Source: Chloroflexi bacterium CFX6
GTDB taxonomy: Bacteria > Chloroflexota > Anaerolineae > Anaerolineales > Villigracilaceae
Length of the DNA stretch: 64,000 nucleotides
Assembly: GCA_030263595.1 (NCBI GenBank)
Contig: SZPG01000032.1
Span: 1 to 64,000, forward strand
Direction: 5' to 3'
Numbering within the stretch: the first letter of the stretch is position 1; the number at the start of each line of letters is the position of its first letter. Positions 23,700 to 59,700 of this stretch are shown here, in pieces. The notes beneath the pieces were generated by a model. The model was not told where the DNA came from. It made no database searches and saw only the letters and a program-made list of their open reading frames with translations. Made by a program: the position numbers and the translations under genes.

Positions 23700-23755
23700 G
23701 ACGTTAGACGCCTTTGGCAGAGTCAACTGCTTTCGTGAAGAGGAGTATGCGAGTA

Positions 23756-24787
23756 ATGAGAAGATTACAGGCTGCGCTTGCAGGGTGGTTCATCGCCGCG
23801 CTGTTTTTGTCAGCCTGCGTTTCGGCAACGCCCGATTGCGCCAGCGAGAACGTGTTCTGTGTGGGTCTGGTGACGAACATCGGCAAGGTAAACGACAAAT
23901 CCTTCAATCAGTCTGCGTGGGAGGGGGTTTACCAGTCTCAAAGGGAATTGGGCGCCCAGGTTCAATACATCGAGACCGTTGATCCGAAGGATTACGATAA
24001 GAACATCGCCGCTTTTGCCGATGAGAATTACGACGTGATCGTGACCGTCGGTTTCAGCATGAGCGAAGCGACACTCAAAGCCGCCGGACTCCATCCAAAC
24101 GTCAAATTTATCGGCGTGGATCAATTCCAGGAGGAGGAAATTCCGAACGTGGTCGGCTTGATCTTTCCCGAGGATCAAGCCGGGTTCCTTGCAGGTGCGC
24201 TTGCCGCGCGGATGAGCAAAACCCAACAGATCGGGGCGGTTTGCGGACCCGATGTGATTCCCCCGGTCTGGCGTTTTGGGGAGGGGTACCGGGCAGGCGC
24301 GGCTTATGCGGACAGCCTCAGTGGCGCGGCGACGAAGGTCCTTATTGCGTATCACGAGAATAACGATATTGCCTTTACCGACGTTGAGTGGGGCGCGGAG
24401 ACCGCCAAAAGCATGATGGATCAAGGCGTTGACGTGATCTTCGGCTGCGGAGGCGTCACCGGCAACAGCGCGATCACGACCGCCGCCGAGGCTGGCGCGT
24501 ACGTCATCGGCGTTGACACCGACCAGTACCTGACCCTGCCCGAAGCCGCCCCGCGCATGCTCTCCAGCGCGATGAAACTCATCACGCCGGGCGTCCTGAA
24601 TCTGATCAGGCTCGCGCGGGAAGGCAATTTCCCGGGCGGCAGCAACCACCTCGGCGAGGCCGGTTACGCTCCCTATCACGATCTGGAGAGCGAAGTCCCG
24701 GCGGACGTGAAGGAGATTATGGAAGAGATCAAGGCCGGTCTGCTCGACGGTTCGCTCGAGACCGGCGTACCCGCGACCAAACCATAG
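23756..24787 (+). CDS. BMP-family substrate-binding lipoprotein 1
   Basis: 343 residues from the chosen start. Signal peptide with lipobox LFLSAC (Cys21), then a periplasmic-binding fold of the BMP/Med/PnrA family: VGLVTNIGKVNDKSFNQSAW, DVIVTVGFSMSEAT, PEDQAGFLAGALAA, VIGVDTDQYLTLPEA. Members bind purine nucleosides or related compounds for an ABC importer. The start at 23756 is taken because AGGAG lies 10 bases upstream and it gives a normal signal peptide; ATG codons at 23714 and 23747 are in frame. It is more diverged from the second BMP protein than a recent duplicate would be. Confidence 0.9.
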   Translation: MRRLQAALAGWFIAALFLSACVSATPDCASENVFCVGLVTNIGKVNDKSFNQSAWEGVYQSQRELGAQVQYIETVDPKDYDKNIAAFADENYDVIVTVGFSMSEATLKAAGLHPNVKFIGVDQFQEEEIPNVVGLIFPEDQAGFLAGALAARMSKTQQIGAVCGPDVIPPVWRFGEGYRAGAAYADSLSGAATKVLIAYHENNDIAFTDVEWGAETAKSMMDQGVDVIFGCGGVTGNSAITTAAEAGAYVIGVDTDQYLTLPEAAPRMLSSAMKLITPGVLNLIRLAREGNFPGGSNHLGEAGYAPYHDLESEVPADVKEIMEEIKAGLLDGSLETGVPATKP

Positions 24788-25050: not shown

Positions 25051-26106
25051 ATGAAAAAACTGCACTTTGCAATGGGAATATTGCTCATCGCCTCCATGAT
25101 TCTCACCGCCTGCGGCGGCGGAGGCGGCGCTTTCAAAGTCGCCCAGGTGACCGACCTCGGCGGTATTGACGACAAATCCTTCAATGCCACAGCCTACAAG
25201 GGCATCGAACGAGCCGTAGCCGAACTGGGCGTCGAGGGCAAGTATTTGGAATCGCAGCAACAGTCCGATTATGCCAAGAACATCCAGCAACTGCTCGATG
25301 AGGATACCGACCTGATCGTCACCGTCGGCTTCCTGCTTGGCGTGGATACGGCTGTCACCGCGAAAGCGAATCCCGATCAGAAGTTCGCGATCGTTGACTA
25401 CGCATATCCAGACTGCTGGCCCGGCGCGGTCGAAGGCAAGGACTGCGGCTCGACGACCGAACTGCCCAATGTTCTGGGTCTGACCTTCGCCACCGACCAG
25501 GCTGGCTTCCTGGCGGGTTATGCCGCTGCCGCCAGCACCAAGACCGGCAAGGTCGCCACCTTCGGCGGCATTCAACTCCCGACCGTGACCATCTTCATGA
25601 AGGGCTTCGAAGCCGGTGTGGGCTATTACAACCAGAACATGGGAACCAACGTCGAAGTCCTCGGTTGGAGCACCGCCGACGACGCGGGTTCCTTCACCGG
25701 CAACTTCGAGTCCCTCGATGATGGGCGCTCCTTCGCCGAAGCCTTCGTCCAGGAAGGCGCCGACATCATCATGCCGGTCGCCGGACCTGTGGGACTTGGT
25801 TCCGCCGCATATTGCAAGGAGACCGGTTCCTGCATGATCGTTGGCGTGGACACCGACTGGACCGTTTCTGCCAGCGAATACAGCGACGTCACTCTCACGA
25901 GCGTATTGAAGATGATGGACGTGGCCGTGTTCGACGCGATCAAAGCCGCGCAGGACGGCACCTTCAAGGGCGGCATCTACGTCGGCACGCTCGCCAACGG
26001 CGGCGTGGGCATTGCCCCGGTCAAAGGCGCTTCCGCCGAACTCAACGCGACGCTGGAGCAATTGAAGAACGACATCATCTCCGGCGCCATTAAAGTAGGT
26101 GGCTAA
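25051..26106 (+). CDS. BMP-family substrate-binding lipoprotein 2
   Basis: 351 residues. Lipobox MILTAC (Cys21), Gly-rich linker, then AQVTDLGGIDDKSFNATAY, IVTVGFLLGVDTA, TDQAGFLAGYAAA and MIVGVDTDWTVSASEY, the BMP family pattern. It keeps extra cysteines (DCWPGAVEGKDC, YCKETGSC) that may form disulfides. A strong hairpin follows the stop, ahead of the ATPase gene, so this binding protein is probably made in excess over the membrane parts. AGGAG lies upstream of the ATG. Confidence 0.93.
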   Translation: MKKLHFAMGILLIASMILTACGGGGGAFKVAQVTDLGGIDDKSFNATAYKGIERAVAELGVEGKYLESQQQSDYAKNIQQLLDEDTDLIVTVGFLLGVDTAVTAKANPDQKFAIVDYAYPDCWPGAVEGKDCGSTTELPNVLGLTFATDQAGFLAGYAAAASTKTGKVATFGGIQLPTVTIFMKGFEAGVGYYNQNMGTNVEVLGWSTADDAGSFTGNFESLDDGRSFAEAFVQEGADIIMPVAGPVGLGSAAYCKETGSCMIVGVDTDWTVSASEYSDVTLTSVLKMMDVAVFDAIKAAQDGTFKGGIYVGTLANGGVGIAPVKGASAELNATLEQLKNDIISGAIKVGG

Positions 26107-26266: not shown

Positions 26267-27829
26267 ATGACAAATGTTCTGGAACTGCGCGGCATCACCA
26301 AACGATTCCCTGGTGTGCTTGCAAACGATAAAGTGGACATCACCTTGCGGGAGGGCAAGATCCTTGCCTTGTTGGGGGAAAACGGCGCCGGAAAATCCAC
26401 CTTGATGAACATTCTATACGGATTGTACAGACCCGATGAAGGCAGGATCGTCGTACGCGGGCAGGAGGTGGACTTCCAGGGACCCAACGACGCCATTGCG
26501 CGCGGCATCGGCATGGTGCATCAACACTTCATGCTCGTGCCGGTGATGACGGTCACGGAAAACGTGATGCTCGGCGTGGAGCCGACGAAGAATCGCTTCT
26601 TCCTGGACAAGGACAAGGTGGCGGCGCGCATCCGTGAAATCTCGGACCAATATGGGTTGGAGGTGGACCCGGACGCGTACATCAAGGATCTGCCGGTCGG
26701 CATCCAGCAGCGGGTCGAGATCATCAAGGTCCTGTATCGTTCCGCCGACATCCTGATCCTCGACGAGCCGACCGCCGTGTTGACCCCGCAGGAGGTGGAA
26801 AGCCTGTTCAAGATCATTCACTCCCTGATCGAAAGGGGCAAATCCATCATCTTCATTACGCACAAACTCAAGGAGGTGATGAAGATCGCGGACGATATCA
26901 CGGTCCTGCGCCTCGGTCGTGTGGTCGGTTCGACCACCCCGCAGGAAGCCAGCCTCGACAAGCTGGCAGCCATGATGGTGGGGCGCGAAGTGAACCTGGT
27001 GGTGACAAAGAAACCCGCCAACCCGCAGGAAATCGTGATGGAGGTCAAGGATCTTTACGTGCGCGATGAACGCCAGAACCTGACTGTCAAGGGCGTGACT
27101 TTCGACGTGCGAAAAGGCGAAGTATTGGGCATCGCGGGAGTGCAGGGCAACGGTCAGACGGAACTGGTCTATGCGTTGACGGGTCTGCTTCCCATTGACA
27201 GCGGCGCGATCCAGTTGTTGGGCGAGACGATCCATCGCGCCACCCCGCGCAACATCCTGGAGCGCGGCGTGGCTCACATCCCCGAGGACAGGCAGCGACA
27301 CGGCTTGATCCTCTCCTTCCCCGTTCACGATAACCTGGTGCTATGCACGTATTACCAGCCTCCGTTCGCGAAAGGCGTGTCTTTACAACAGAATACGATC
27401 TTCGGAAACGCCGAGGGGCTGGTCAAGCAATTCGATATCCGCACGCCGAGTATTTTCGTCAACGTCGGGGGGCTTTCGGGCGGCAACCAGCAAAAGGTGA
27501 TCGTGGCGCGCGAATTCTCGCGTCCGATCCAACTGCTCATCGCCTCGCAGCCGACCCGGGGCTTGGACGTCGGTTCGATCGAATACATCCACAACCAGAT
27601 CATCAAAAAACGCGACGAAGGCACAGGCATCCTGCTGGTGTCGTCGGAATTGGACGAGATCCTGGCGCTCTCGGATCGCATTGCGGTGATGTACAAGGGC
27701 GGCATCATGGACATCCTCGATGCGAAGAAAGTGGACAAGGAATACCTGGGCTTGCTTATGGCGGGCGTGCACCCGTCCGAACCGGTGAAGGTGGATGAAA
27801 GCGCCGCCGCCCCGGAAAGAGTTTTCTAG
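26267..27829 (+). CDS. nucleoside-type ABC importer ATPase (two ATPase domains)
   Basis: 520 residues with two ABC cassettes, as in RbsA/NupO-type ATPases. First domain: Walker A GENGAGKSTL and Walker B region ILILDEPTAVLTPQE; the signature loop is degenerate (DLPVGIQQR). Second domain: degenerate Walker A (GVQGNGQTEL) and signature LSGGNQQK, with QLLIASQPTRGLDVG where Walker B is expected. Such asymmetry is normal in this family. It powers uptake with the two permeases downstream. GGAGG lies eight bases before the ATG. 10 nt separate it from the next gene. Confidence 0.93.
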   Translation: MTNVLELRGITKRFPGVLANDKVDITLREGKILALLGENGAGKSTLMNILYGLYRPDEGRIVVRGQEVDFQGPNDAIARGIGMVHQHFMLVPVMTVTENVMLGVEPTKNRFFLDKDKVAARIREISDQYGLEVDPDAYIKDLPVGIQQRVEIIKVLYRSADILILDEPTAVLTPQEVESLFKIIHSLIERGKSIIFITHKLKEVMKIADDITVLRLGRVVGSTTPQEASLDKLAAMMVGREVNLVVTKKPANPQEIVMEVKDLYVRDERQNLTVKGVTFDVRKGEVLGIAGVQGNGQTELVYALTGLLPIDSGAIQLLGETIHRATPRNILERGVAHIPEDRQRHGLILSFPVHDNLVLCTYYQPPFAKGVSLQQNTIFGNAEGLVKQFDIRTPSIFVNVGGLSGGNQQKVIVAREFSRPIQLLIASQPTRGLDVGSIEYIHNQIIKKRDEGTGILLVSSELDEILALSDRIAVMYKGGIMDILDAKKVDKEYLGLLMAGVHPSEPVKVDESAAAPERVF

Positions 27830-27839
27830 GAGAACCCCC

Positions 27840-29024
27840 GTGACCGAAAAGAAGAAATCGAAATCCAAATCTTCCGAAGGGATCGGCGGCGGCTCGCTGG
27901 GCGAGGCGCTGCGCGTCCCCGCATTGGCTGTGCTGACGGGCTTGATCATCGGCGCAATCGCCATTGCGGCAAGCGGTTCGAACGTTTTCGAAGCCTACAG
28001 CGCTTTATTCATCGGCGCGTTTGGGGACCCGGTCCGCTTCTTCAACGGTTTCCAGCAACTCTTTACCACAGGCGAGACGGCCGGATTGCTCAGAGCCATC
28101 TACCCGTTCACGGAAAGCCTCGTCACGGCGACGCCCTACATCTTCGCCGGGCTTTCCGTGGCGCTGGGTTTCCGCTGCGGGCTTTTCAACATCGGCGCGG
28201 AAGGGCAGCTCTTCATTGGCGCGTTATGCTCGGCTTTCGTCGGATATAGCATCGTCGGCTTGCCGGCCTACATCCACCTGCCGCTTGCCCTCCTGGCTGG
28301 CGCGGCGGGCGGCGCGCTCTGGGGCATTGTGCCTGGATACCTCAAGGCGCGTTTCGGCGCGCACGAGGTGGTCAACACCATCATGATGAACTGGATCGCC
28401 TTTCGATTAAGCGACTGGCTGTTGAACGGACCCATGAAAGCCTCCGGCTTCCGACCGGTGACGCCCAACATCGAACACACTGCGGAACTGCCCCGCTTCT
28501 TTCCCGATCCCCTGCGGCTGAACTGGGGCTTCATCCTCGCGCTCATTGTCGCCTACGTTTTGTACTGGTTCCTCTTCAAGACCACGCTCGGTTTCGAGAT
28601 CCGTTCGGTGGGCGCCAACCCGGACGCCGCCAAATACGCCGGCATGAACATCATCAGGAACTTTGTGCTGGTCATGGCGCTGGCTGGCGGACTGGCGGGG
28701 CTGGCGGGTTCCTCGCAGGTGCTGGGCGTGGATCATTGGGTCGGGCAGGGCTTCTCGGCGGGTTATGGTTTCGATGCGATCGCGCTGGCGCTGCTCGGCA
28801 AAAGTCACCCATTCGGGGTGGTGCTGGCTGCCCTGCTGTTCGGTTTTCTGCGCAGCGGCGCGACGCGCATGCAATCCATGGCTGGCGTGCCGATTGACAT
28901 TATTTCCATCATCCAGGGATTGGTGATCATCTTCATCGCCGCGCCCGAAATCATCCGCTGGCTGTACCGGCTAAAAAGCGTCAAGGTCGAAGAAACCGTG
29001 TTGACGCGCGGCTGGGGCAAATAA
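27840..29024 (+). CDS. nucleoside-type ABC importer permease 1
   Basis: 394 residues from a GTG start; about nine hydrophobic segments of the BPD_transp_2 (RbsC/NupP) family. Typical motif region: LGFRCGLFNIGAEGQLFIGA, and GAHEVVNTIMMNWIA. AGGAG of the preceding gene's end serves as ribosome site, 10 bases upstream of the GTG. An earlier in-frame ATG at 27795 overlaps the ATPase gene and adds a charged tail, so it was rejected. It pairs with the permease that follows. Confidence 0.9.
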   Translation: MTEKKKSKSKSSEGIGGGSLGEALRVPALAVLTGLIIGAIAIAASGSNVFEAYSALFIGAFGDPVRFFNGFQQLFTTGETAGLLRAIYPFTESLVTATPYIFAGLSVALGFRCGLFNIGAEGQLFIGALCSAFVGYSIVGLPAYIHLPLALLAGAAGGALWGIVPGYLKARFGAHEVVNTIMMNWIAFRLSDWLLNGPMKASGFRPVTPNIEHTAELPRFFPDPLRLNWGFILALIVAYVLYWFLFKTTLGFEIRSVGANPDAAKYAGMNIIRNFVLVMALAGGLAGLAGSSQVLGVDHWVGQGFSAGYGFDAIALALLGKSHPFGVVLAALLFGFLRSGATRMQSMAGVPIDIISIIQGLVIIFIAAPEIIRWLYRLKSVKVEETVLTRGWGK

Positions 29025-29036
29025 AGGAGAGACCAG

Positions 29037-30299
29037 ATGACAACACTGAACGCAACAGTCAATACCGCCCTGGTAAACCGCGCCCGCATCACCTACGGCA
29101 TCGTCCTGCTGGCGATGGGCTTGTTCATCTACTTTTTCTTCGGTTTGGATACGCAATCCGGTTTGGAGACCACCTTCGGGCTCAACCTGGCAGGTTCGCA
29201 GGCGATCCCGATTCCCGACCTCACGGTCCCCTCGCAGTTGACCGTTTATCTGATGGCGGGGATCGCCGTCTTCCTCGGCGCGTTCCAACTGGCGCGCGGG
29301 GTCAGGACCACGGGCGCGCTGATCGCCGTCATTGGCGCCACGTTTATCGTCGCCTTCCTTACCTGGGCGGCGCAGGGAAAGTCCTTCAACCTGACCGGCA
29401 TGTTGAGCAGTTCGCTGGTGCGCGCCACGCCCATCGCCCTCGCCGCGCTCTGCGGCGTCGTCAGCGAACGGGCGGCGGTCATCAACATCGGCATCGAGGG
29501 CATCATGTTGATCTCCGCACAGGCGGCTGTGGTGGCAGCCAGCCTCACGGGTAATTTATACCTGGGGCTGTTCTTTGCGATCCTGCTCGGCGGTCTGGTC
29601 GCCGCCCTGCACGCCTTTCTCGTCATCCGCTTCAAGGTGGACCAGATCGTCAGCGGCGTCGCCATCAACATATTCGGCACCGGTCTTACCTCGTTCATAA
29701 GTTCGCGCTTCCTCGAAAAGAACACGGATCTATTGAACAATTCCGGCGTTTTTCCCGTCGTCTCCATTCCCGTTCTCTCGAAGATCCCCGTTCTGGGTCC
29801 CATGTTGTTCGAGAACAACATCGTCATTTATCTGGCGATGCTGTTGATTGTCGCCCTGCACATCGTCCTGTTCTATACTCCCTGGGGATTGCGGACGCGC
29901 GCGGTCGGAGAACACCCCAAGGCGGCGGATACGCTCGGCGTGAACGTTTATCTCGTCCGTTACGTGAACGTCATTCTCGGCGGCATGATCGCGGGCTTGG
30001 GCGGCGCGTATTTCACCATCGGCTCTGTGGGACGTTTCGACGAGATCATGACCGCCGGTAAGGGATTCATCGGTCTCGCCGCGATGATCTTCGGCAAGTG
30101 GAATCCCATCGGCGCATTCGCTTCGTCTTTGATCTTTGGCTTCGCCGACTCGCTCCAGGTGAGATTGCAGATCCTGCGCGTGCCGATCCCTTCGGAGTTC
30201 CTGCTCATGGCGCCCTACATCGTGACGATGATCGCCCTGACGGGCGTTGTGGGTCGCGCCATTCCTCCCGCCGCCGACGGCCAGCCGTACGAGAAATAA
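29037..30299 (+). CDS. nucleoside-type ABC importer permease 2
   Basis: 420 residues, BPD_transp_2 (NupQ-like). A longer N-terminal part than permease 1 contains two extra hydrophobic segments (about 17-35 and 65-85), then the family core: CGVVSERAAVINIGIEGIML and KVDQIVSGVAINIFGTGL, VGEHPKAADTLGVNV. 12 nt behind permease 1. Last gene of the transporter operon; a run of repeats and a hairpin follow. Confidence 0.9.
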   Translation: MTTLNATVNTALVNRARITYGIVLLAMGLFIYFFFGLDTQSGLETTFGLNLAGSQAIPIPDLTVPSQLTVYLMAGIAVFLGAFQLARGVRTTGALIAVIGATFIVAFLTWAAQGKSFNLTGMLSSSLVRATPIALAALCGVVSERAAVINIGIEGIMLISAQAAVVAASLTGNLYLGLFFAILLGGLVAALHAFLVIRFKVDQIVSGVAINIFGTGLTSFISSRFLEKNTDLLNNSGVFPVVSIPVLSKIPVLGPMLFENNIVIYLAMLLIVALHIVLFYTPWGLRTRAVGEHPKAADTLGVNVYLVRYVNVILGGMIAGLGGAYFTIGSVGRFDEIMTAGKGFIGLAAMIFGKWNPIGAFASSLIFGFADSLQVRLQILRVPIPSEFLLMAPYIVTMIALTGVVGRAIPPAADGQPYEK

Positions 30300-30474: not shown

Positions 30475-30612
30475 GTTTCGACAGGCTCAACCCAGGAGTT
30501 TCGACAGGCTCAACCCAGGAGTTTCGGCAGGCTCAACCCAGGAGTTTCGGCAGGCTCAACCCAGGGGTTTCGACAGGCTCAACCCAGGAGTTTCGGCAGG
30601 CTCAACCCGGGA
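30475..30612. repeat. six tandem 23-bp repeats
   Basis: Six uninterrupted units of GTTTCGRCAGGCTCAACCCAGGA (R at position 7; two units vary near the end). No spacers, so not CRISPR. Part of the 553-nt gap between the transporter operon and the first NBR1-type gene. The rest of the gap holds a miniature inverted-repeat element (30638-30777) and no coding region. Confidence 0.93.
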
Positions 30613-30637
30613 GTTGAGGCTTGTCCGAGTTAGGAAT

Positions 30638-30852: not shown

Positions 30853-31986
30853 ATGTTCAAAGTCGCACGTAATTTTTTCGTTTTGAGCGTATTCCTGGCG
30901 CTTGCGCTGGCGTCCTGCAACCTGCCTTCGCGCTCGCCGCAGACGGAGGAGCCCAACGCCATCTTCACGCAGGCGGCGTTGACCGTGCAGGCGCAATTGA
31001 ACCAGACCCCCACCCCCGCCCCTTTCAACACGCCGACCCTGCCGCCTCCGCAGCCGACGAACACGGCTGTCACCCTGCCCACGTTTCCGGCCGTCACAAA
31101 TACGTCGGTCGCCTCCGCCACACCGACCTGTGATGTGGGGCAGTTCATCAGGGATGTGACCATCCCGGATGGAACGACTTTCGCTCCCGGTGAGACGTTC
31201 ACGAAAACCTGGCGAATCAGGAACGCAGGCACCTGCACCTGGTCCGGCTATGCGCTCGTGTTCGACAGCGGCGATGCCATGAACGGCGCCTCGCCCATCG
31301 CCATCGGAACGGTGGGGCCGGGCCAGGAAGTGGATATCTCCGTCAACCTGATCGCCCCCGCGACGAACGGTTCCTATCGCGGCTACTGGCGCATCCGCAA
31401 CGCCTCGGGGGTTTTTATCCCGATCCTCGGCGGAACGCAGGGCAGGTCCTTCTTCGTGGACATCAAGGTCGGCGTCAGCAGTTCGGGGTACGATTTCTAC
31501 ACGAGAGCCTCCAGCGCGGTCTGGACGAGCGGCGCCGGCAGCCTCACCTTCGGCGGACCCGATACGGACGACAAGGGCTTTGCCATGTACAAGGACAACC
31601 AGAAACTCGAGGACGGAACGACCACCACAAAAGTCCTCGAAACGCACCCGCAATTCGTGGACAACGGTTTTATATCGGGGCGGTTCTCCTCGTACACCGT
31701 CGTTCAGGGCGAGCATTTCACGGCAAAGATCGGGTTTCTCGCGCTTGCCGACGGCACGTGTGGATCGGGCAACGTGAAATTCCAACTGAACTACAGGGAG
31801 GGCGGCGGTCCGATCACCTCCCTCGGCGAATGGACCGAGACCTGCGACGGCATTATGAAATCCATTGACGTGGATTTGACCTCCCTCAAAGGCAAAACGG
31901 TCGAATTCATCTTGCAAGTTTCGGCGAACGGCGCGTCCTCACAGGACTGGGCTGTCTGGGTCAGGCCCCAAATAGCGCTGCCGTAA
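30853..31986 (+). CDS. NBR1-type Ig-like lipoprotein 1
   Basis: 377 residues. Signal peptide with lipobox LALASC (Cys22), a Thr/Pro linker (about 45-92), one NBR1-type Ig-like domain (about 93-200: IRDVTIPDGTTFAPGETFTK, TWRIRNAGTCTWSGYALVF, YRGYWRIRNASG) with two Cys that should form a disulfide, and a second module (about 205-377) that starts SSGYDFYTRASSAVWTSGAG and ends ASSQDWAVWVRP. The same second module follows the NBR1 domain in the proteins at 33409 and 56738. Surface-exposed by prediction. GAGGAG precedes the chosen ATG. Ligand and function unknown. Confidence 0.88.
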   Translation: MFKVARNFFVLSVFLALALASCNLPSRSPQTEEPNAIFTQAALTVQAQLNQTPTPAPFNTPTLPPPQPTNTAVTLPTFPAVTNTSVASATPTCDVGQFIRDVTIPDGTTFAPGETFTKTWRIRNAGTCTWSGYALVFDSGDAMNGASPIAIGTVGPGQEVDISVNLIAPATNGSYRGYWRIRNASGVFIPILGGTQGRSFFVDIKVGVSSSGYDFYTRASSAVWTSGAGSLTFGGPDTDDKGFAMYKDNQKLEDGTTTTKVLETHPQFVDNGFISGRFSSYTVVQGEHFTAKIGFLALADGTCGSGNVKFQLNYREGGGPITSLGEWTETCDGIMKSIDVDLTSLKGKTVEFILQVSANGASSQDWAVWVRPQIALP

Positions 31987-31997
31987 CGATGAGCAAA

Positions 31998-32026
31998 CGC
32001 CCGACCCGCCCCGTCGGGCGTTTTTT
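31998..32026 (+). terminator. rho-independent terminator
   Basis: CGCCCGAC-N7-GTCGGGCG followed by six T, 11 nt after the stop of NBR1-type gene 1. Separates it from the next gene. Confidence 0.93.
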
Positions 32027-32045
32027 ATGAACGGTATAATCGAGC

Positions 32046-32124
32046 GATGTTACGCAGTCCATTCGTACCGCAGCCCGAATGTCGCCCTGCGAATGCGAGA
32101 CCGTGGTCTCGCAATACTGCGTAA
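32046..32124. mobile_element. miniature inverted-repeat element, copy 2
   Basis: 79 bp. The left end GATGTTACGCAGT shares 11 bases with the end of the element at 30638, and TTACGCAGT (32050-32058) pairs with ACTGCGTAA (32116-32124). Its core is the perfect palindrome TGCGAGACCGTGGTCTCGCA (32094-32113), like the GCGAGAC hairpin of copy 1. Confidence 0.55.
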
Positions 32125-32174
32125 GGCGGGTCATCAGCCGCCAAGAGTTACAGATGAAACAAGAAAGGTAGTTA

Positions 32175-33107
32175 ATGCGTTTACAAAAACCGACGATAAT
32201 TCCACTCCTGGTTTGCGTTGCGTTGCTCGCCGCTTCGTGCGGCGGCGCGGCGCGGACCGAAACCGAATCAGAGATCGCCACAGCCGTCGCGCAGACCGTA
32301 CAGGCGCGGGATTCGTTGACAAAGGTCTCGGCTCTTCCCACCCTTACGCCTGTTCCTGCCCTCCAAGCCACCGCGACGCCCGAACCCGATCCCACCAACA
32401 CACCCGGGCAGGCGGTTTCCAACCCCGGATGCGCCGCCTCCGCCAGCCTGGTCAGCGAGAGCCCGCCCGATGACGTGTTATTCCCGCCCGGCGAATACTT
32501 CTGGAAAACGTGGACGTTCCTCAACACCGGCGACTGCGTTTGGGACACCTCCTACAGCCTCGTCTTCTGGAACGGGGAACGCATGGGAGGTCTTTCCTCC
32601 TACGCGCTGACCGAGGTCGTCCAACCCGGCGGCACCCTGGAGATATCCGTCTATCTGCAAGCCCCAGCCGCCGATGGCACCTACACAGGCTTCTGGCGTT
32701 TGAAGACGCCCTGGGGCGCGGATTTCGGCGTGGGTCCGTTGAACACTTCCTTCTACGTGCGGGTCGAAGTGTCGTCGGGTTCCAAACCCCGTTACGGAAT
32801 CTCGAACGTGGCGTTCGAACTGGTGCGCGATCCCGCCTCGGGATGCCCGGTGAACGTCCGTTACACGGTCTACGCCACGATCACGACGAACGGTCCGCTC
32901 GCCGTCGGTTATTACTGGGACCAAAGCGACGGGAACGAGACCGGCATCCGCTGGCTTGAATTCACCAAGGCGGAAAGCCGCACCATCGAACGCGAATGGA
33001 TGATCGGCAGGGGCGCCACGCAAAACCCGCGCTGGATCCAATTGATCGTCACCGAGCCGCAGCGCCAGGAATATGAACGAGTGCCGATCCTGAACACCTG
33101 CCCGTAG
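32175..33107 (+). CDS. NBR1-type Ig-like lipoprotein 2
   Basis: 310 residues. Lipobox LLAASC (Cys22), low-complexity linker (about 30-82), a diverged NBR1-type domain (about 85-195: LFPPGEYFWKTWTFLNTGDC, TGFWRLKTPWG) and a different C-terminal domain (about 200-310) with KPRYGISNVAFELVRDPASG and a Cys pair (SGCPVNVRY, ILNTCP). That C-terminal domain looks like a small beta-sandwich and is not shared with the other members. The PDG motif of the family is replaced (SPPDDVLF). Own terminator follows, so it is transcribed alone. Confidence 0.86.
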   Translation: MRLQKPTIIPLLVCVALLAASCGGAARTETESEIATAVAQTVQARDSLTKVSALPTLTPVPALQATATPEPDPTNTPGQAVSNPGCAASASLVSESPPDDVLFPPGEYFWKTWTFLNTGDCVWDTSYSLVFWNGERMGGLSSYALTEVVQPGGTLEISVYLQAPAADGTYTGFWRLKTPWGADFGVGPLNTSFYVRVEVSSGSKPRYGISNVAFELVRDPASGCPVNVRYTVYATITTNGPLAVGYYWDQSDGNETGIRWLEFTKAESRTIEREWMIGRGATQNPRWIQLIVTEPQRQEYERVPILNTCP

Positions 33108-33112
33108 AGTTC

Positions 33113-33143
33113 AAAAGCCGAAGCCAACACTTCGGCTTTTTTT
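33113..33143 (+). terminator. rho-independent terminator
   Basis: AAAAGCCGAAG-CCAACA-CTTCGGCTTTT followed by more T, 6 nt after the stop of NBR1-type gene 2. Confidence 0.95.
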
Positions 33144-33236
33144 ATGGAACTCCCGACCCGGCCGGAACGTCCTAGCAAATGGTCTTATGAGGCAGCGCGA
33201 TATTTATGTCTATGTCGCCTTTTGATTGCGAATTCT

Positions 33237-33361
33237 CTACCGTACATTTTAGAAATCGGACGCGGACGAGCGCCGACGCTTCGCGCGCGGAAAATAAATT
33301 AAAAATCCGCGTTGTCCGCGCGCTCCGCAGTCCGCGTCCTATAAGTGGCTTTGTACGGTAG
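33237..33361. mobile_element. 125-bp nested inverted-repeat element
   Basis: Outer arms CTACCGTAC (33237-33245) and GTACGGTAG (33353-33361); inner arms GGACGCGGAC (33258-33267) and GTCCGCGTCC (33330-33339); a central CGCGGA/TCCGCG pair around an AT-rich loop. It would fold into one long imperfect hairpin. No coding capacity; MITE-like. It fills most of the 301-nt gap before NBR1-type gene 3. Confidence 0.6.
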
Positions 33362-33368
33362 TGAAATT

Positions 33369-33389
33369 GCGACTTGAAAGTCGCGTTAC
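33369..33389. repeat. REP-like palindrome, third GCGAC-type copy
   Basis: GCGACTTGAAAGTCGCGTTAC, the same plan as the copies at 4289 and 30710 with A/T exchanges that keep the stem paired. It lies 20 bp before the start of NBR1-type gene 3. Confidence 0.65.
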
Positions 33390-33408
33390 GCTGAAATCGG
33401 AGGTTCGA

Positions 33409-34746
33409 ATGTCTGGAAAGAATTCCAGGATCGTCTTGATATTGACCGTGACGCTGGGGGTCACGCTAGCCTGCGGTCTTTTTACGCCCGCGACGCCCCA
33501 GCCCGCGGCGACGCTTGATTCCCTCTACACTGCCGCCGCGCAAACGTTGAACGCTATGTCCACGCAAGCCGGTGCGACCCAGCCTGTGGCGACCTCCTCT
33601 CCCTCCCCCACCTCCACCCTGTTCGTGCCAACCAACAGCCCGACAGGTTTCCCCACGTTTACGCTGGTGCCGCCCCTGCAGACCGTCACAAAATGCGACG
33701 CGGCGGCGTTCGTGGCGGACGTCACCTATCCCGACGGTTCGGTTATCGGGCGCGGGCAAACGTTCACAAAGACGTGGCGCGTGAAGAACGTCGGCACATG
33801 CGCGTGGACGACCGCCTACGACCTGGTATTCGTGAGCGGCGAAAAGTTCGGGGCGAGTAACGTTGTCGCTTTGCCGGCAGGCGTCGCCCCGGGAAGAAGC
33901 GTGGATATATCCGTTCAACTCACCTCGCCCACCCAGGACGGGCGCTATCGAGGCTTCTGGAAACTTCGCAACGCATCCGACGTCCTGTTCGGGTTCGGGT
34001 CGAGCGGCGACTCCAGCCTCTACGTGGACGTGACCGTCGCCGGTTACACGATCACGGGATACGACCTGGCGACGAACCTCTGCGATGCCGCATGGCGGAA
34101 CGCGGAGAAACAACTGCCCTGCCCGGGCGCGCAAGGCTCCGCCGACGGGTTTGCCGTATTGATGAACGCCCCTCAAATGGAGGATGGCGTCGTGCGCGGC
34201 ATCGGCCTGTTGACGCATCCGCAAATGATCAACCACGGCGCGATCACGGGAAAATACCCCGCCATCAACATCCAGTCGGGAGATCGCTTCAAGGCGTTGA
34301 TCGGCTGCCTGTATCAAGCCGACGACTGCAACATGATCTTCAAACTCGAATACCAGATCGGAAGCGACCCGGTGAAACTGCTCGGTCAATGGAACGAAAT
34401 CTACGAAGGGAAGTATTACCCCGTTGACATTGACCTGAACTTCCTGAGCGGAAAAAAGGTCAAGTTCATTTTGACGATTCTAGCCAACGGCTCCTCGCAC
34501 GAGGATTACGGATTGTGGGTCATGCCGCGCATTACGAAACAAAGTTCCCAGCCTCCCACTGCGACGCCCACCCGCACTCTTTCCCCGACCGTAACTGCCA
34601 CGCCGACCTCGACCTTTACCGCCACCCCGACCTTTACCGCCTCACCGACCTCCACCGCAACGGCAACGGCGAGCGCATCGCCAACGGCAACCGCCACCGA
34701 GACCCCGACCGAAACGCCCACTGAAACCCCGATCACAGCGCCGTGA
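33409..34746 (+). CDS. NBR1-type Ig-like lipoprotein 3 with Ser/Thr/Pro tail
   Basis: 445 residues. Lipobox VTLACG (Cys near 22), Thr/Pro linker, NBR1-type domain (about 95-205: VADVTYPDGSVIGRGQTFTK, CAWTTAYDLVF, YRGFWKLRNAS), then the YDx second module (about 208-380: TGYDLATNLCDAAWRNAEKQ, HEDYGLWVMPR) as in proteins 1 and the 1538-residue mosaic. It ends in a 60-residue Ser/Thr/Pro/Ala repeat tail (TATPTSTFTATPT and similar) with no anchor after it. Start ATG 33409 has GGAGG seven bases upstream; an earlier GTG in frame lies within a repeat element. Confidence 0.88.
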   Translation: MSGKNSRIVLILTVTLGVTLACGLFTPATPQPAATLDSLYTAAAQTLNAMSTQAGATQPVATSSPSPTSTLFVPTNSPTGFPTFTLVPPLQTVTKCDAAAFVADVTYPDGSVIGRGQTFTKTWRVKNVGTCAWTTAYDLVFVSGEKFGASNVVALPAGVAPGRSVDISVQLTSPTQDGRYRGFWKLRNASDVLFGFGSSGDSSLYVDVTVAGYTITGYDLATNLCDAAWRNAEKQLPCPGAQGSADGFAVLMNAPQMEDGVVRGIGLLTHPQMINHGAITGKYPAINIQSGDRFKALIGCLYQADDCNMIFKLEYQIGSDPVKLLGQWNEIYEGKYYPVDIDLNFLSGKKVKFILTILANGSSHEDYGLWVMPRITKQSSQPPTATPTRTLSPTVTATPTSTFTATPTFTASPTSTATATASASPTATATETPTETPTETPITAP

Positions 34747-34783
34747 AGCGGGCGTACCTCGTAAGTCATATTGCATACTGCTG

Positions 34784-34838
34784 CCTTGCATACTGCCTTG
34801 CATACTGCCTTGCATACTGCCTTGCATACTGCCTTGCA
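34784..34838. repeat. 12-bp tandem repeats directly upstream of a -10 element
   Basis: Four perfect units of CCTTGCATACTG (34784-34831) plus a 7-bp partial unit, with a degenerate copy just before. The last unit runs into ATACTG-CCTTG-CAGTAT, a small inverted repeat that overlaps the -10 at 34840. Confidence 0.93.
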
Positions 34839-34839
34839 G

Positions 34840-34879
34840 TATAATGAGATTGGGAACGCGGTCATAAACGCGTTCCCAA
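34840..34879 (+). promoter_or_regulatory. -10 element followed by a 5'-leader hairpin
   Basis: TATAAT (34840-34845), then TTGGGAACGCG (34850-34860) pairing perfectly with CGCGTTCCCAA (34869-34879). Transcription should begin about 34852, at the base of the hairpin, giving NBR1-type gene 4 an mRNA with a structured 5' end. No -35 hexamer is seen; the spacing falls inside the tandem repeats. Confidence 0.55.
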
Positions 34880-34915
34880 CCCACTCGTGAAACGACCTGA
34901 ACGGAGGTAACCATC

Positions 34916-35653
34916 ATGTTCTTTCGGATATTTCCGCGGCGCATCCTGCTTATGTCGCTGACCGCCGCCCTGATACTTGCCTCGTGCAACGTTGGCGCGG
35001 AGCCATCCCCCACGCTGGACGTGAACGCCATCAACACCGCCATCGTCGGGACGACGGTCGCCCAACTCTCCGCGCAATTTACGCAGACCGCGCTTGCCGC
35101 GCCGACAAACACCCCCACAGCGACCAACACGCCTCAGGATCTGCCCACATTTGCCCTGCCCACCGCGGACGCCAGCGCCCTGCCGACCATTTCATTCAAC
35201 ACCACACCCGGAGCCATCACAACGCCGCTGCCGGGCTTTACCCAAATTTCCCCCGCATCGCCCTCCGCCGCGACACAGTCGCTTGGAGACGCGTGCAATA
35301 ACAGCGCCTTCGAAGGCGACATTACCATTCCAGACGGTTCGATACTGCCGCCCGGTTATGATTTCCAAAAGATCTGGAAACTTCGCAATACCGGCAGCTG
35401 CACATGGGATGAAGGTTACACCCTGGTCTACATCGGCGGCAGCACACCGGACCTGGATCCGAGGAATTTCGAATTCACAAAAAGCAGCGACTTTGTCGCA
35501 GGAGGGCAAGCCATCAACATGGGCATCTGGCTGACGACCCCCTGTACCCCCGGCAAAGACTACCAGGGACATTGGCGCATGCGCAATGACAGCGGCTACT
35601 ATTTTGGAACGCTTCTGTCCGTCTACGTGGAAGTCCAGGAAAAGTGCAAGTAG
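34916..35653 (+). CDS. NBR1-type Ig-like lipoprotein 4
   Basis: 245 residues. Lipobox LILASC (Cys near 24), Thr/Pro/Ala-rich linker (about 45-125), one NBR1-type domain to the C-terminus (EGDITIPDGSILPPGYDFQK, KLRNTGSCTWDEGYTLVY, YQGHWRMRNDSGYYFG). It has an extra cysteine pair (TTPCTPG, QEKCK at the end) not found in the other members. GGAGGTAA lies before the ATG. 21 nt separate its stop from gene 5, and no terminator lies between, so genes 4 and 5 are probably one transcript. Confidence 0.88.
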   Translation: MFFRIFPRRILLMSLTAALILASCNVGAEPSPTLDVNAINTAIVGTTVAQLSAQFTQTALAAPTNTPTATNTPQDLPTFALPTADASALPTISFNTTPGAITTPLPGFTQISPASPSAATQSLGDACNNSAFEGDITIPDGSILPPGYDFQKIWKLRNTGSCTWDEGYTLVYIGGSTPDLDPRNFEFTKSSDFVAGGQAINMGIWLTTPCTPGKDYQGHWRMRNDSGYYFGTLLSVYVEVQEKCK

Positions 35654-35674
35654 TATCGAACGGAAGGAGATCCC

Positions 35675-36295
35675 ATGAAACTCAAATACTTCGCGCTCCC
35701 GCTCCTTTGTGGTTTGCTCCTCTCCGCATGTGGCGGGTCCGCCGCCCCCACAGAGCCGCCGGTTGACGTTGCCGCTGTTCGCACCTCCGCCGCCAGCACA
35801 GTGGAGGCGAGATTCACCCTGACCGCCGCAGCGTTCACCCCCACCCCGCCTCCCCCGACCGAAACCGAAGCCGCCGCAACGGACGAACCCGAAGCCACCC
35901 CCACTGCAACATCGCCGGTGATCGCCGTGGTTACGAACGCGGAGGGAACGCAGGTCGAACTTTGCGATAATCTGATCTACGTCGCCGATGTGACCGTCCC
36001 GGACGGAACCATCATGTCGCCCGGACAGGATTTCGTCAAGACGTGGCGCGTACGAAACACCGGCGCGTGTCCGTGGGGCGCGGGATACGTTCTCGCCTAC
36101 GCGGGATATACCATCCCGATGGCCGGTCAATTCATTGCGATGACGGAGGTCATCCAACCGGGGCAGGAGGTGGAGGTCTCCGTTCAATTCACAGCCCCCA
36201 GCCAGGCCGGCGAATACCTGAGCGCGTGGACGATGCGGAACCCGCAGGGAGTCACCTTTCCTCAAGTGGTCTTCGTGAAGATCATCGTGCAATAG
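35675..36295 (+). CDS. NBR1-type Ig-like lipoprotein 5
   Basis: 206 residues, the shortest member. Lipobox LLLSACGG (Cys near 19), Thr/Pro/Glu linker (about 45-85), one NBR1-type domain (about 95-206: YVADVTVPDGTIMSPGQDFV, RVRNTGACPWGAGYVLAY, AWTMRNPQGVTFPQVVFV). AAGGAG precedes the ATG. queG begins 4 nt after the stop, so this gene may be cotranscribed with it, although the functions are unrelated. Confidence 0.88.
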   Translation: MKLKYFALPLLCGLLLSACGGSAAPTEPPVDVAAVRTSAASTVEARFTLTAAAFTPTPPPPTETEAAATDEPEATPTATSPVIAVVTNAEGTQVELCDNLIYVADVTVPDGTIMSPGQDFVKTWRVRNTGACPWGAGYVLAYAGYTIPMAGQFIAMTEVIQPGQEVEVSVQFTAPSQAGEYLSAWTMRNPQGVTFPQVVFVKIIVQ

Positions 36296-36299
36296 ATCA

Positions 36300-37340
36300 G
36301 TGACCCGCGACCTCAAACAGAACATCAAAGACAAAGCGCGCCAGTTGGGATTTATCCTGACTGGCGTGACGCTTCCCGACCCGCCCCCGCACTACTCCAC
36401 ATTCGAAAACTGGCTCGCGCAAGGCCGTCACGGCAAAATGGATTACCTTGCCGCCGAACGCTCCCGTGTCCGCCGCGCCGACCCGAAACAAATCCTCCCC
36501 GAATGTAAATCCATCCTGGTCCTGGCAACGCCCTACGATCCCCCGCTCCCCATGAGGGAGGGGCTGGGCGCGAGGGTCGCCTCCTACGCGCGCGGCGCAG
36601 ACTACCACGACGTTCTCCCCGCGCGGATGAAGGAACTTGTTCAATTCATCGAGGAGCAGGTCGGAGGTCCGGTAAAGAACCGCTGGTACACGGATACCGG
36701 CCCCATCCTCGAACGCGATCTCGCCCAGCGCGCCGGCATCGGATGGATCGGCAAGAACACCTGTCTCATCCACCCGAAACAAGGCTCGTATTTCTTCATC
36801 TCCGAAGTCCTGCTCGACCTCGAACTCGAACCCGACCCGCCCTTCGTCACCGATCACTGCGGCGCGTGCACGCGTTGCATCGAAGCATGCCCCACGCAAT
36901 GTATCCTTCCCGATCGCACGCTCGACGCGGCGCGCTGCATTTCCTACCTCACCATCGAACTCAAGGACGACATTCCTCTTGAACTGCGCGGCAAAATGGG
37001 CGATTGGGTTTTTGGGTGCGACGTCTGCCAGATGGTCTGCCCGTGGAATCGATTCGCGCCCGAAGGCGATCCCGCCTTTTCGGAGGAAGAACCGCCTCCC
37101 TCTTTGACCGAGGAACTGACTCTCACACCCCGGACTTTTAACCAACGCTTCGAGCGGAGCCCCGTCAAACGCGCCAAGCGACGCGGCTACCTGCGAAACG
37201 TCGCGGTCGCGCTCGGCAACACCGGAGACCTGCGCGCCCTCCCGGTATTACAAAACGCATTGAACGACGAGGAACCCACGATCCGCGAACACGCGGCTTG
37301 GGCAATCGAACAGATCAATCGGCGCGCGAATCAGCCGTGA
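36300..37340 (+). CDS. queG: epoxyqueuosine reductase QueG
   Basis: 346 residues. Last step of queuosine synthesis: cobalamin-dependent reduction of epoxyqueuosine in tRNA. Visible: catalytic Asp132 in WYTDTGPILERDLA, AGIGWIGKNTCLI, two 4Fe-4S sets (CGACTRCIEACPTQC and CDVCQMVCPWN), and a C-terminal HEAT-like repeat (RALPVLQNALNDEEPTIREH) as in the longer QueG form. The start is a GTG at 36300; nothing upstream in frame fits better. No other queuosine gene is in the window. Confidence 0.95.
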   Translation: MTRDLKQNIKDKARQLGFILTGVTLPDPPPHYSTFENWLAQGRHGKMDYLAAERSRVRRADPKQILPECKSILVLATPYDPPLPMREGLGARVASYARGADYHDVLPARMKELVQFIEEQVGGPVKNRWYTDTGPILERDLAQRAGIGWIGKNTCLIHPKQGSYFFISEVLLDLELEPDPPFVTDHCGACTRCIEACPTQCILPDRTLDAARCISYLTIELKDDIPLELRGKMGDWVFGCDVCQMVCPWNRFAPEGDPAFSEEEPPPSLTEELTLTPRTFNQRFERSPVKRAKRRGYLRNVAVALGNTGDLRALPVLQNALNDEEPTIREHAAWAIEQINRRANQP

Positions 37341-56737: not shown

Positions 56738-59700
56738 ATGTTCAGACAGAAATTGTTGAGCATGGTTCTTTTGGCGGGGATGTTGCTGGGACAGACCGTT
56801 CCCAACGCGCTGGCGGTTGAAATTTGCGATCAGGCGCAATTCGTTTCGGATATCACCGTCCCGGATGGGGCTTCGTTCGCGCCGGGCGCGTCGTTCACAA
56901 AGACGTGGCGGTTCACGAACGCCGGGACGTGCGCGTGGACGACGTCGTATAAACTCGTCTTTGCCGGTGGCGACGCGATGGGTCCCACCGCTTCCGTCAA
57001 TTTGCCCGTGAACGTCGCGCCGGGACAGATGCTCGACATCTCTGTCAACCTGACCGCGCCGACGACGCCCGGTCACTACAAAAGTCTATGGAAGTTCGCG
57101 AACGCATCCGGCGCGCAATTCGGCATCGGCAGTTCGGGGAGCGACGCTTTTTGGGTGGACATCAACGTGGTCGCGAGCGACGCGGTCATTTACGATTTTG
57201 TCGCCAACGCGCCTTATGCAACATGGAGGAGCGGCGCGGGGACACTGCCCTACCCCGGCGCAAGCGGGGACAGGCGCGGCTTCTCCTACCAGGTGGACAG
57301 ACCGCACCTCGAGGACGACTCGTTCGATTCATTGCCCGGACTGCTGACCGTTCCCCAAAACAAATACAACGGCTACATCCAGGCGACCTATCCCGAATTC
57401 CAGGTGCAACAGGGCGACAAATTGCAAACGCTCGTCAACTGCGAGTTCGGCGCGACCGGCTGCTACGTCACCTTCCGCATTGATTACCTGCTCCCCAACG
57501 GTTTACAGAAAACGCTGTGGACCTGGAAGGAAGCGCACGATAAACGCTTCTATCGCGCGAACCTGGATTTGAGTTCACTGGCGGGACAAAAGGTCCGCTT
57601 TGTGTTCATGCTGTTATCGAGCGGACTGGCAAGCAACGACCGCGCCTTATGGGGATCGCCGCGCATCGTTCGTTCCGGGACGATACAACCACCGGCTCCT
57701 CCGGCGACCTTGACTCCGCTCCCGCCTCTCACGCCGACTCCAACGCCGATCACGCCTCCGCCTCCCACCATTGCTCCCGCCGGCTGCGACCGCGCCTCCT
57801 TCGTCACGGACGTAAACGTCCCGGATGGGACGATCTTTGCGCCCAGCGCGACGTTCTCCAAAACGTGGCGGTTGAAAAACTCCGGTTCCTGCACGTGGAC
57901 AAAAGACTACAAATTGATGTACTACAGCGGCGAGGTGATGAACGCGCAGACCGCGGTCAACATGCCGTTCTTTGTGTACCCGGGCGAGACGGTTGACGTT
58001 ACCGCCAACATGGTCGCCCCGGGCGCGCCCGGCGATTATCGCAGTTACTGGATCCTCTCCAACGCGAACGGAAAGATGTTCGGACTCGGCTCGAACGCGT
58101 CCAATCCCTTCTGGGTGGATATCAAGGTGGCGGGCGAGTCGCCGCAGGAAACCGGTTACAACTTCTGGCTGAACGCCTGCGCCGCCCAATGGAAGAGCGG
58201 CGCGGGCGCATTGCCCTGTCCCGGCACGGGTGGAGACCGCAAAGGCTACGTCATCGCGGATAACTTCTCGCACCTCGAAGACGGGACGATGGGTCCCGCG
58301 CCCTCGCTGCTGCTCGCACCGGAGAATAAATACAACGGCTACATCCAGGGCTTCTATCCCGCTTTTACCGTGCAGCCCGGCGACCGCTTCCGCTCGGTGG
58401 TGGGATGCAATTATGGCGCGAGTTGTTACGTCACCTTCCGGCTCGATTACATGAATCCCAACGGCTACATTGGGAACTTCTGGCAATGGCGCGAACAGAA
58501 CGATAAAAAGAATTACACGGTGGACGTGGACTTGAGCCCATTGGCGGGAAGAAGCGTGCGCTTCATCCTCACCATCCTTGCCACCGGCAGCGCAAACGGC
58601 GACATTGTGCGATGGGGCGCGCCGATGATCATCCGCGCGGGAGGGAGCGCGCCGCCCAGCGTAACCCCCATTCCGCCGACGGATAACTGGTTAACCTATT
58701 CCAACGCGGCATACGGATTCGAGTTCAAATATCCGCCGCAGTCGCAGATCGCCAGCCAGCAGAACAATTTCGCGCGCATCCAACTGCCCATCGTCCCCGG
58801 CACGAACCTTTCGGAGAAATACCTCGAGGCGGTCGTCACCGAAAACGCCGGTGTCTGCCAGAGTCCCTTCGCCACGAGTTCCATCCTCGCCACGTCCGAG
58901 ACGGTGAACATCAACGGCATATCCTTCCTCAAACAGACGGGCGGAGACGCCGGCGCGGGCAACTTCTACGATTGGGTCGCTTATTCGACGCTCCGTAACG
59001 CGAATTGCGTAAGCATGGGCTTTGTCCTCCATTCGCTCAACCCCGGCAACTTCGATCCGCCGAGACCGGTCTTCGACAAAGCCGCCGAGTCTGCGGTGTT
59101 CGCGCAAATGATGTCCACATTTACGTGGCTGACGGCGCCTCCCACACCGACCTTCACGCCTGTTCCCCCCACATTGACACCCATCCCCCCGCCGACGATC
59201 ACGCCCGGACCGCCGGTCGCTTCGCCCACCATCAGGTCGCTGCACATGAACGATGCCATGAACGGGTGGGCGCTCGGCGATCAGTACGTCCTGCGCACAT
59301 ACGATGGCGGCGCGACCTGGTACAGCGTGTTGTCTGAAAGCGCGCCCACCGGCGGCTACTTTGCATCGCCCACGACGGCGTGGGTGATCGGCAATTTCGC
59401 CGATCTCAGCGTCGGTTCGCTCTACCGCACAACGAACGGCGGCGCCAACTGGACGAAGTACGATGTCCCGTTCAACGGCGGTTCCATCCAATTCCTGGAC
59501 GACAACACCGGTTACGTGTTCCAGATCACCGGCGCGGCGATGAATAAACAATCCGTCGTCCTGTACAAGACCACGGATGGCGGCGCCACCTGGATCAAGA
59601 ACTACGATAACGATCCCACTGTGCCAGGCTCGAGCAACACGCTTCCGCTCGGCGGGCACAAGAGCGGCATAACATTCAGCGCTGCGACCACCGGCTGGAT

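Follow-up and report, generated by a model that had tools for sequence, protein, structure and literature searches.

The FW (four-tryptophan) domain has been described in human ILRUN and NBR1 and in fungal Nbr1, and bacterial FW domains are already known (PMC3357945, PMC9582228). Marchbank et al. 2012 (PMC3357945) name the Chloroflexi and describe eubacterial XRE-FW, tandem-FW, and TM-FW proteins; their account of these proteins makes no mention of a lipoprotein array, CBM51-like partners, an importer locus, or tip exchange. Such an array is the subject of this analysis. It lies in a window of 64,000 nucleotides (contig SZPG01000032.1, assembly GCA_030263595.1, positions 1 to 64,000) from Chloroflexi bacterium CFX6, and it consists of five adjacent genes (30853-36295, + strand) encoding lipid-anchored FW proteins, with an ABC importer upstream and a queG-like gene downstream. 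The array domains are like those of human ILRUN and NBR1 and fungal Nbr1 in fold, motif, and pocket residues. The domains of ILRUN and NBR1 are cytosolic, whereas those of the array are exported and lipid-anchored and have an extra Cys pair. In comparison with NBR1, the site of the fourth Trp usually has Tyr, Trp, or Phe, and the PB1, ZZ, and UBA domains are missing. Pfam found neither these nor any other NBR1 domain in six FW proteins of the window and ten others of the genome, and NBR1-like links to autophagy or ubiquitin were rejected.

The remaining parts of the locus also have described relatives. The YD module on two of the array proteins is similar in fold to CBM51/NPCBM domains; it differs in lacking a Pfam NPCBM match and in being found on lipoproteins without an enzyme. 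RbmA of Vibrio cholerae is a biofilm scaffold of tandem FnIII domains, whereas the protein of gene 2 has one FnIII-type domain beside FW and is lipid-anchored. The importer resembles BMP/PnrA-type nucleoside ABC importers in having a Bmp protein, an ATPase, and two BPD_transp_2 permeases. It differs from them in sharing its locus with FW lipoproteins and queG, and in having two versions that alternate at one place. The open-access literature yielded no account of the array, of the combination of FW lipoprotein and CBM51-like module, or of the link to an importer, and no described answer was found to the role of the FW domain in bacteria.

A family locus of FW lipoproteins, importer, and queG

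The five-gene array is an old family locus of fixed gene order. In other genera the order is one or more BMP proteins, the ABC importer, FW1, FW2 with an FnIII-type domain, FW3 with a YD module, FW4, FW5, and queG. The same order is found in the window, where the genes and domains are as follows.

30853..31986, +, gene 1, FW lipoprotein of position 1 (exchangeable tip): lipobox, helix-like stretch, Thr/Pro stalk, FW, CBM51-like YD module
31159..31416, +, FW domain of gene 1 (PF16158, E 1.5e-24)
31477..31983, +, YD (CBM51-like) module of gene 1, from alignment (profile match in the genome at 31480-31977)
32175..33107, +, gene 2, FW lipoprotein of position 2: FW and FnIII-type domain
32466..32771, +, FW domain of gene 2 (PF16158, E 1.2e-20)
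32796..33098, +, FnIII-type domain of gene 2, best matched by the second domain of RbmA
33409..34746, +, gene 3, FW lipoprotein of position 3: FW, YD module, C-terminal Thr/Pro tail
33724..34038, +, FW domain of gene 3 (PF16158, E 3.1e-24; best structural match 6vhi)
34051..34539, +, YD (CBM51-like) module of gene 3 (best structural match 7js4)
34916..35653, +, gene 4, FW lipoprotein of position 4, FW at the C-terminal end (PF16158 at 35324-35635)
35675..36295, +, gene 5, FW lipoprotein of position 5, immediately 5' of queG, FW at the C-terminal end (PF16158 at 35993-36289)
23714..24784, +, BMP/PnrA-type substrate-binding protein (PF02608, E 1.8e-49), at the same place in relatives
25051..26106, +, second BMP/PnrA-type substrate-binding protein (PF02608, E 9.9e-52)
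26267..27829, +, double ABC ATPase of the importer (PF00005 in two stretches, E 2.4e-48)
27795..29024, +, permease A (PF02653, E 1.1e-46)
29037..30299, +, permease B (PF02653, E 1.1e-38), from one of two alternating importer versions according to the permease B tree and their mutual exclusivity
36300..37340, +, queG-like epoxyqueuosine reductase gene (PF08331, E 3e-18; Fer4_16), 4 nt after gene 5

The Bmp, ABC_tran, and BPD_transp_2 genes stand together and identify a BMP-type ABC importer. Pfam N_BRCA1_IG (PF16158) matches all five array genes far above its cut-off (E 3e-20 to 7e-25), in agreement with the initial annotation of five adjacent genes sharing one Ig-like domain. The partner parts are also as it described them: genes 1 and 3 have a YDx module, gene 2 has a different domain, and genes 4 and 5 end with FW. 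The start of gene 3 is taken as the ATG at 33409; a GTG at 33361 is also open.

The association of FW genes with queG is frequent when loci are counted without selection. QueG was found in 57 of 61 genomes of the family, and all 57 surroundings were read; locus scans used profiles built from the domains of the CFX6 genome itself. In 51 of the 57 an FW gene lies on the same strand no more than 500 nt upstream of queG, mostly as overlapping stop-to-stop frames. Two of the six exceptions end at a contig edge (G334, G056), and in the other four (G045, G021, G350, G369) queG is elsewhere or apart. G045 nevertheless has the importer followed by the full array, though its queG is about 14 kb away. 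The number of FW genes near queG ranges from one to six per locus, and a short form consisting of importer, one FW gene, and queG is present in six loci (L117, L121, L125, L128, L132, L133). An FW-YD gene is found at queG in a locus from another family of the order (L092). In 38 loci the upstream sequence extends for at least 9 kb; 24 of these have a BMP importer there, and all 24 have FW genes.

The FW tree shows that the array positions are ancient. It includes 107 domains, those of 19 array loci and 14 other domains of the CFX6 genome. Position labels require 10 changes on this tree, where the minimum is 7 and shuffled labels give a mean of 70.2 (0 of 200 shuffles as low). Many forks are weak, as the domain has few columns, but the position-5 domains make up one group (support 90) and a single starred set contains 16 of the 18 from position 3. 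Since the domains group by position and not by genome, the duplications are older than the genera and the genes have not been remade in each genome. The old expansion by duplication that had been proposed earlier is therefore upheld.

The separate terminators offered as further evidence for that expansion did not survive. Terminator-like sites are present 3' of gene 1 (32007-32020) and gene 2 (33120-33139); the region contains 9 of them where 8.2 are expected, no excess over shuffles. Counts of terminators and promoters equal those in shuffled sequence and were rejected as a sign of separate units. Gene 4 is separated from gene 5 by 21 nt and gene 5 from queG by 4 nt. Repeats are found in two of the intergenic gaps: a 23-nt unit (GTTTCGACAGGCTCAACCCAGGA) repeated six times in tandem at 30475-30615, between importer and gene 1, and a 12-nt unit (CTGCCTTGCATA) in nearly five perfect copies at 34781-34838, between genes 3 and 4.

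The importer at the locus exists in two long-diverged versions. Its genes are ordered abc-perm-perm in one and perm-perm-abc in the other, and permease B splits in the same way into two clades (support 100) of 13 and 14 loci. When the versions of these 27 loci are placed on the queG tree they change 9 times, and shuffled labels do as well in 271 to 279 of 500 cases. A search with the window permease in 13 genomes found one version in seven (69-100% identity) and the other in six (47-51%); none of the 13 has both, and each version is located at the array. There may have been repeated replacement, or an exchange of long-diverged importer alleles. Because a BMP-type importer is kept at the locus despite the change of version, this is the best evidence for a functional tie between importer and array.

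Domains of the array proteins and the exchangeable tip

The five proteins share one layout. In each, a lipobox (LASC, AASC, TLAC, LASC, and LSAC in gene order) is followed by a short stretch resembling a helix (typically xxTxAAxTVxA), then by a Thr/Pro stalk and a single FW domain. A rule-based check found the lipobox in 91 of 93 array proteins from 19 loci, and the two misses resemble lipoproteins by eye. Between the lipobox Cys and the stalk a motif close to PTxDxxxIxTxAAxTVxAxxTQTA recurs, and it is also seen in FW lipoproteins outside the array (L001, L009). It is possibly a shared membrane-proximal helix.

Structure models place the FW domain with its eukaryotic relatives. Genes 2 and 3 were modelled with AlphaFold2 and compared with structures in the PDB. 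The FW-YD model of gene 3, built from a 25-row alignment, has a predicted local distance difference test score (pLDDT) of 91.6, and that of gene 2, from 8 alignment rows, has 86.6. The FW domain of gene 3 matches human ILRUN 6vhi with Z 17.6 and a root-mean-square deviation (rmsd) of 1.4 over 108, and NBR1 4ole with Z 15.6; that of gene 2 matches 6vhi with Z 15.9 and 7vqo_A with Z 14.6. The earlier proposals of an NBR1-type Ig-like fold and of export with lipid anchoring thus agree with the lipobox count and with the models of genes 2 and 3, and genes 1, 4, and 5 follow by sequence. Of the motifs listed for the domain, YWRxRN is present in literal form in gene 1 only, while the domain itself is common to all five.

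Conservation of the domain was surveyed in 262 non-redundant sequences (80% identity), taken from 342 near-full domains among 351 found. Trp, Cys, Asn, Gly, and Pro positions are the best conserved. Three Trp sites have W in 257, 262, and 232 of the 262 domains, and the fourth has W in 72, Y in 90, and F in 27 of 221. Of 261 countable domains, 243 have both a Cys immediately ahead of the domain and the one in GxCxW; 3 have the upstream Cys by itself, 0 the GxC Cys by itself, and 15 neither. The eukaryotic FW domains aligned do not have the GxC Cys. This pattern fits a disulfide, which in turn fits an exported protein.

The domain appears from the alignment to keep the peptide pocket of fungal Nbr1, which suggests a docking role. 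In Chaetomium Nbr1 the N-terminal di-glycine of Ams1 is gripped by a pocket including F651, D654, D658, W672, L762, and W763 (PMC9233695). These residues correspond to alignment columns 7, 10, 15, 29, 110, and 111, the last two counted by hand. The F651 site is aromatic in 220 of 248 FW domains, the D654 site acidic in 257 of 261, the D658 site acidic in 258 of 262, the W672 site Trp in 257 of 262, and the W763 site (column 111) aromatic in 189 of 221. In the window the five residues are F, D, D, W, F in gene 1, L, E, D, W, Y in gene 2, F, D, D, W, Y in gene 3, and Y, D, D, W, F in gene 5; gene 4 has F, D, D, W, and its last site is unsure. By alignment, R743 of the Chaetomium protein, as given in PMC9233695, is not kept in the FW domains of the window.

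The YD module is predicted from the gene 3 model to have a CBM51 fold. Its closest structures are 7js4 (Z 15.2, rmsd 2.1 over 133) and, slightly lower, 2vmg (Z 14.7), at 12-15% identity. Among the ten structure rows below those of FW, nine are CBM51 by title (7js4 at Z 15.2 to 2vnr at Z 13.9) and the tenth is 8pvs_A, an Akkermansia enzyme; MAM domains follow from Z 12.6. FW and YD were rejected as an obligatory pair, as 13 of 41 YD frames in L169-L209 have no FW, in a count that includes some genes twice (for example L182 and L207). In a different Chloroflexota family a protein kinase-like protein has a YD module at its C-terminal end (L206:2537-5512, G128). The additional domain of gene 2 is modelled as an FnIII-type sandwich and is closest to RbmA 5g50_B (Z 9.5, rmsd 2.2 over 94, 5% identity), with unrelated sandwiches at Z 8 to 9.

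The C-terminal part varies between species at position 1 only. Position 2 has an FnIII-type tail in 18 of 18 loci, a constancy that is partly by construction since the tail helped to define this position when loci were chosen. Position 3 has YD in 19 of 19, position 4 no tail (at most 3 aa) in 20 of 20, and position 5 none (at most 1 aa) in 20 of 20. The 30 orthologues at position 1 have FnIII-like tails (10), YD (9), two kinds of CBM96-like tails (4 and 4), or none (3). Tips were labelled by tail length and motif rather than structure, and 'CBM96-like', based on one weak Pfam match (E 0.098) and a motif, is a lead only. The initial annotation proposed surface binders that vary by partner domain; this holds in a narrower form, with partners swapped between relatives at position 1 only and constant at positions 2 to 5.

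The trees indicate that the tips have changed many times. The position-1 FW tree requires 12 changes among five states, or 9 among four when the CBM96 kinds are pooled, and the independent queG tree of 26 of the loci gives 9 tip changes. The approximately unbiased (AU) test rejects a single origin for YD carriers (p 4.6e-6) and for CBM96-like carriers (p 6.6e-7), groups that were chosen after the architectures had been viewed. The FW domains of L160 and L025 are 81% identical and their tails are unrelated; between the window and L018 the FW domains are 52% and the YD modules 60% identical. The YD modules of position 1 form one clade apart from position 3 (support 97), and the FnIII domains of position 1 are split from those of position 2 (99), so copying of the gene 1 YD from gene 3 and of the position-1 FnIII from position 2 were both rejected. 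The simplest reading is that C-terminal cassettes have been exchanged between position-1 genes of different lineages.

Near-duplicate loci were treated as follows. Neither the trees nor the lipobox count include L031, a near copy of L030. L010 and L011 (the same places as L028 and L027) were left out of the FW position, YD, and FnIII trees, and L131 and L134 (the same as L032 and L042) out of the FnIII tree. L161, nearly identical to L162, was left out of the YD and FnIII trees and kept in the position-1 FW and queG tip counts. L046 has no position 3 and is outside the 30 position-1 rows, to which L032 and L042 were added by hand.

Proposed capture receptors and rival explanations

The array may be a capture system at the cell surface. 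Its anatomy, synteny, and cassette exchange come from computation, and its function is what we infer. The leading explanation, to which we give slightly less than an even chance, is that the five proteins are outward-facing, lipid-anchored capture receptors belonging to the conserved importer locus. FW would be the common docking part, acting through the acidic and aromatic pocket that it shares with fungal Nbr1, and the C-terminal modules would bind extracellular glycans or glycoconjugates. The receptors could bring cell debris or the breakdown products of nucleic acids or glycans to the cell, and the BMP-type importer would then take up nucleoside-like products. Protein 1, through its exchangeable tip, might adjust what gets captured. 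Such proteins would be an extracellular counterpart to the cargo domain of an autophagy receptor and the likely capture machinery of Anaerolineales. Most members of this order are uncultured and live in sludge, sediment, and groundwater, habitats that the record titles also suggest. With a fixed FW locus, an importer, and one exchangeable tip, the bacterial role of FW becomes a defined test of ligands and importer dependence.

Several results weigh against capture receptors. The importer is absent from 14 of the 38 loci with sufficient upstream sequence, 11 of which still have FW-queG; FW5 is thus not always dependent on the importer. In the CFX6 genome 11 of the 16 FW genes are outside the array. 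Pfam searches at E up to 10 gave no NPCBM match for the YD modules of genes 1 and 3, and the argument for sugar binding by YD therefore comes from the fold alone. The five-column pocket (columns 7, 10, 15, 29, 111) is complete in only 152 of 208 gap-free domains, and its conserved Asp and Trp could be structural rather than binding residues. Capture receptors would also leave the link to the cytoplasmic QueG unexplained.

The proteins might instead be adhesins or a matrix scaffold, holding cells, sheath, or biofilm matrix together with the importer as a mere neighbour. The FnIII-type domain of gene 2 would act as in RbmA, its closest match, and the CBM51-like modules would bind matrix glycans. 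The long Thr/Pro stalks suit this role, as do the FW genes elsewhere in the genome and the FW-queG loci without importer (11 of the 38). FnIII matches of Z 8-10 are common arrangements, however. The importer is found upstream in 24 of 38 loci, and a different BMP-type importer has taken its place there repeatedly, which would be needless for a mere neighbour. That the locus is fixed and includes a BMP-type ABC importer and queG also argues against a free-standing adhesin array, and the scaffold is considered rather doubtful.

A little more doubtful is an exchange station, in which a fixed FW docking platform on the cell surface would read free protein N-termini or strands by means of the Nbr1-type pocket, while the tip of protein 1 and the entire importer are swapped as cassettes between lineages. 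If true, FW would be an ancient N-terminus-reading dock, extracellular in bacteria and intracellular in autophagy receptors.

Improbable is the suggestion that these are housekeeping or envelope proteins in which FW and the C-terminal modules are structural spacers, and whose gene order reflects nothing but vertical descent and slow rearrangement. It is consistent with conservation being strongest at Trp, Cys, Asn, Gly, and Pro, as in a fold core. It does not suit the acidic pocket positions kept in 257 of 261 and 258 of 262 domains, or the many exchanges of tip cassettes and importer versions while the order remained unchanged.

The proximity of queG raises the question of queuosine-precursor uptake, in which the importer would carry a 7-deazapurine (preQ1 or Q nucleoside) with the FW proteins as accessories. 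The adjacency of FW5 and queG in 51 of 57 genomes is in its favor. Among 25 genomes, CFX6 and 24 relatives, QueA is found in 23 and TGT in 22; TGT was not found in the CFX6 genome, which is 91% complete. QueC gave at most weak partial matches in 22 of the 25 (best 30.8 bits, 69 of 210 positions) and none in 3. The presence of tgt, queA, and queG without a convincing queC suggests that Anaerolineales probably salvage queuosine precursors, with QueE and QueF outside the search. However, 17 of the 25, CFX6 included, have a transporter of the Vut_1/YhhQ family, which we take to be the queuosine-precursor carrier, and 18 have PTPS. With these weakening it, with FW-queG loci that have no importer, and with QueG acting on tRNA in the cytoplasm, precursor uptake is very unlikely to be the function of the array. 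A role in defence was rejected, since the single PADLOC hit (E 0.005) is weak and implausible and falls in the Thr/Pro tail of gene 3.

FW genes outside the array

FW genes are numerous in the genome and in its relatives. The CFX6 genome (4.07 Mb, 141 contigs) has 19 FW domains in 16 genes, all 19 above the Pfam cut-off. The initial annotation counted six related genes, of which the sixth, with two FW domains, was correctly located; the family is larger than that.

56738..61354, +, secreted FW-YD-FW-YD protein with a beta-propeller (BNR/Ycf48/Vps10) and a weak SH3_3 match (PF16158 twice)

The open reading frame of this gene is listed from 56708, and the M at 56738 is the likelier start. Two other loci of the same genome, L002 and L004, repeat its FW-YD-FW-YD part, and L002 also shares the segment that follows.

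A survey of gene numbers per genome, which had been suggested with the annotation, found FW in all 41 genomes of the relatives sample (CFX6 included), with 1 to 21 matches each; genomes of the genus have 7 to 21. Across the phylum sample a match is present in 94 of 301 genomes, where a per-genome count of 15 stands for at least 15. By title 59 of the 63 loci found are Chloroflexota, mostly Anaerolineales or Anaerolineae, and gene 3 has its closest named relative, at 90% identity, in 'MAG: Anaerolineales bacterium isolate MAG_12'. A more distant Chloroflexi metagenome-assembled genome has a tandem FW array of four frames and five domains (L065:4369-10763), a locus with no BMP or queG matches. 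Another partner is seen in L007:2844-3845, an FW lipoprotein with a CAP/SCP domain (PF00188, E 7e-15).

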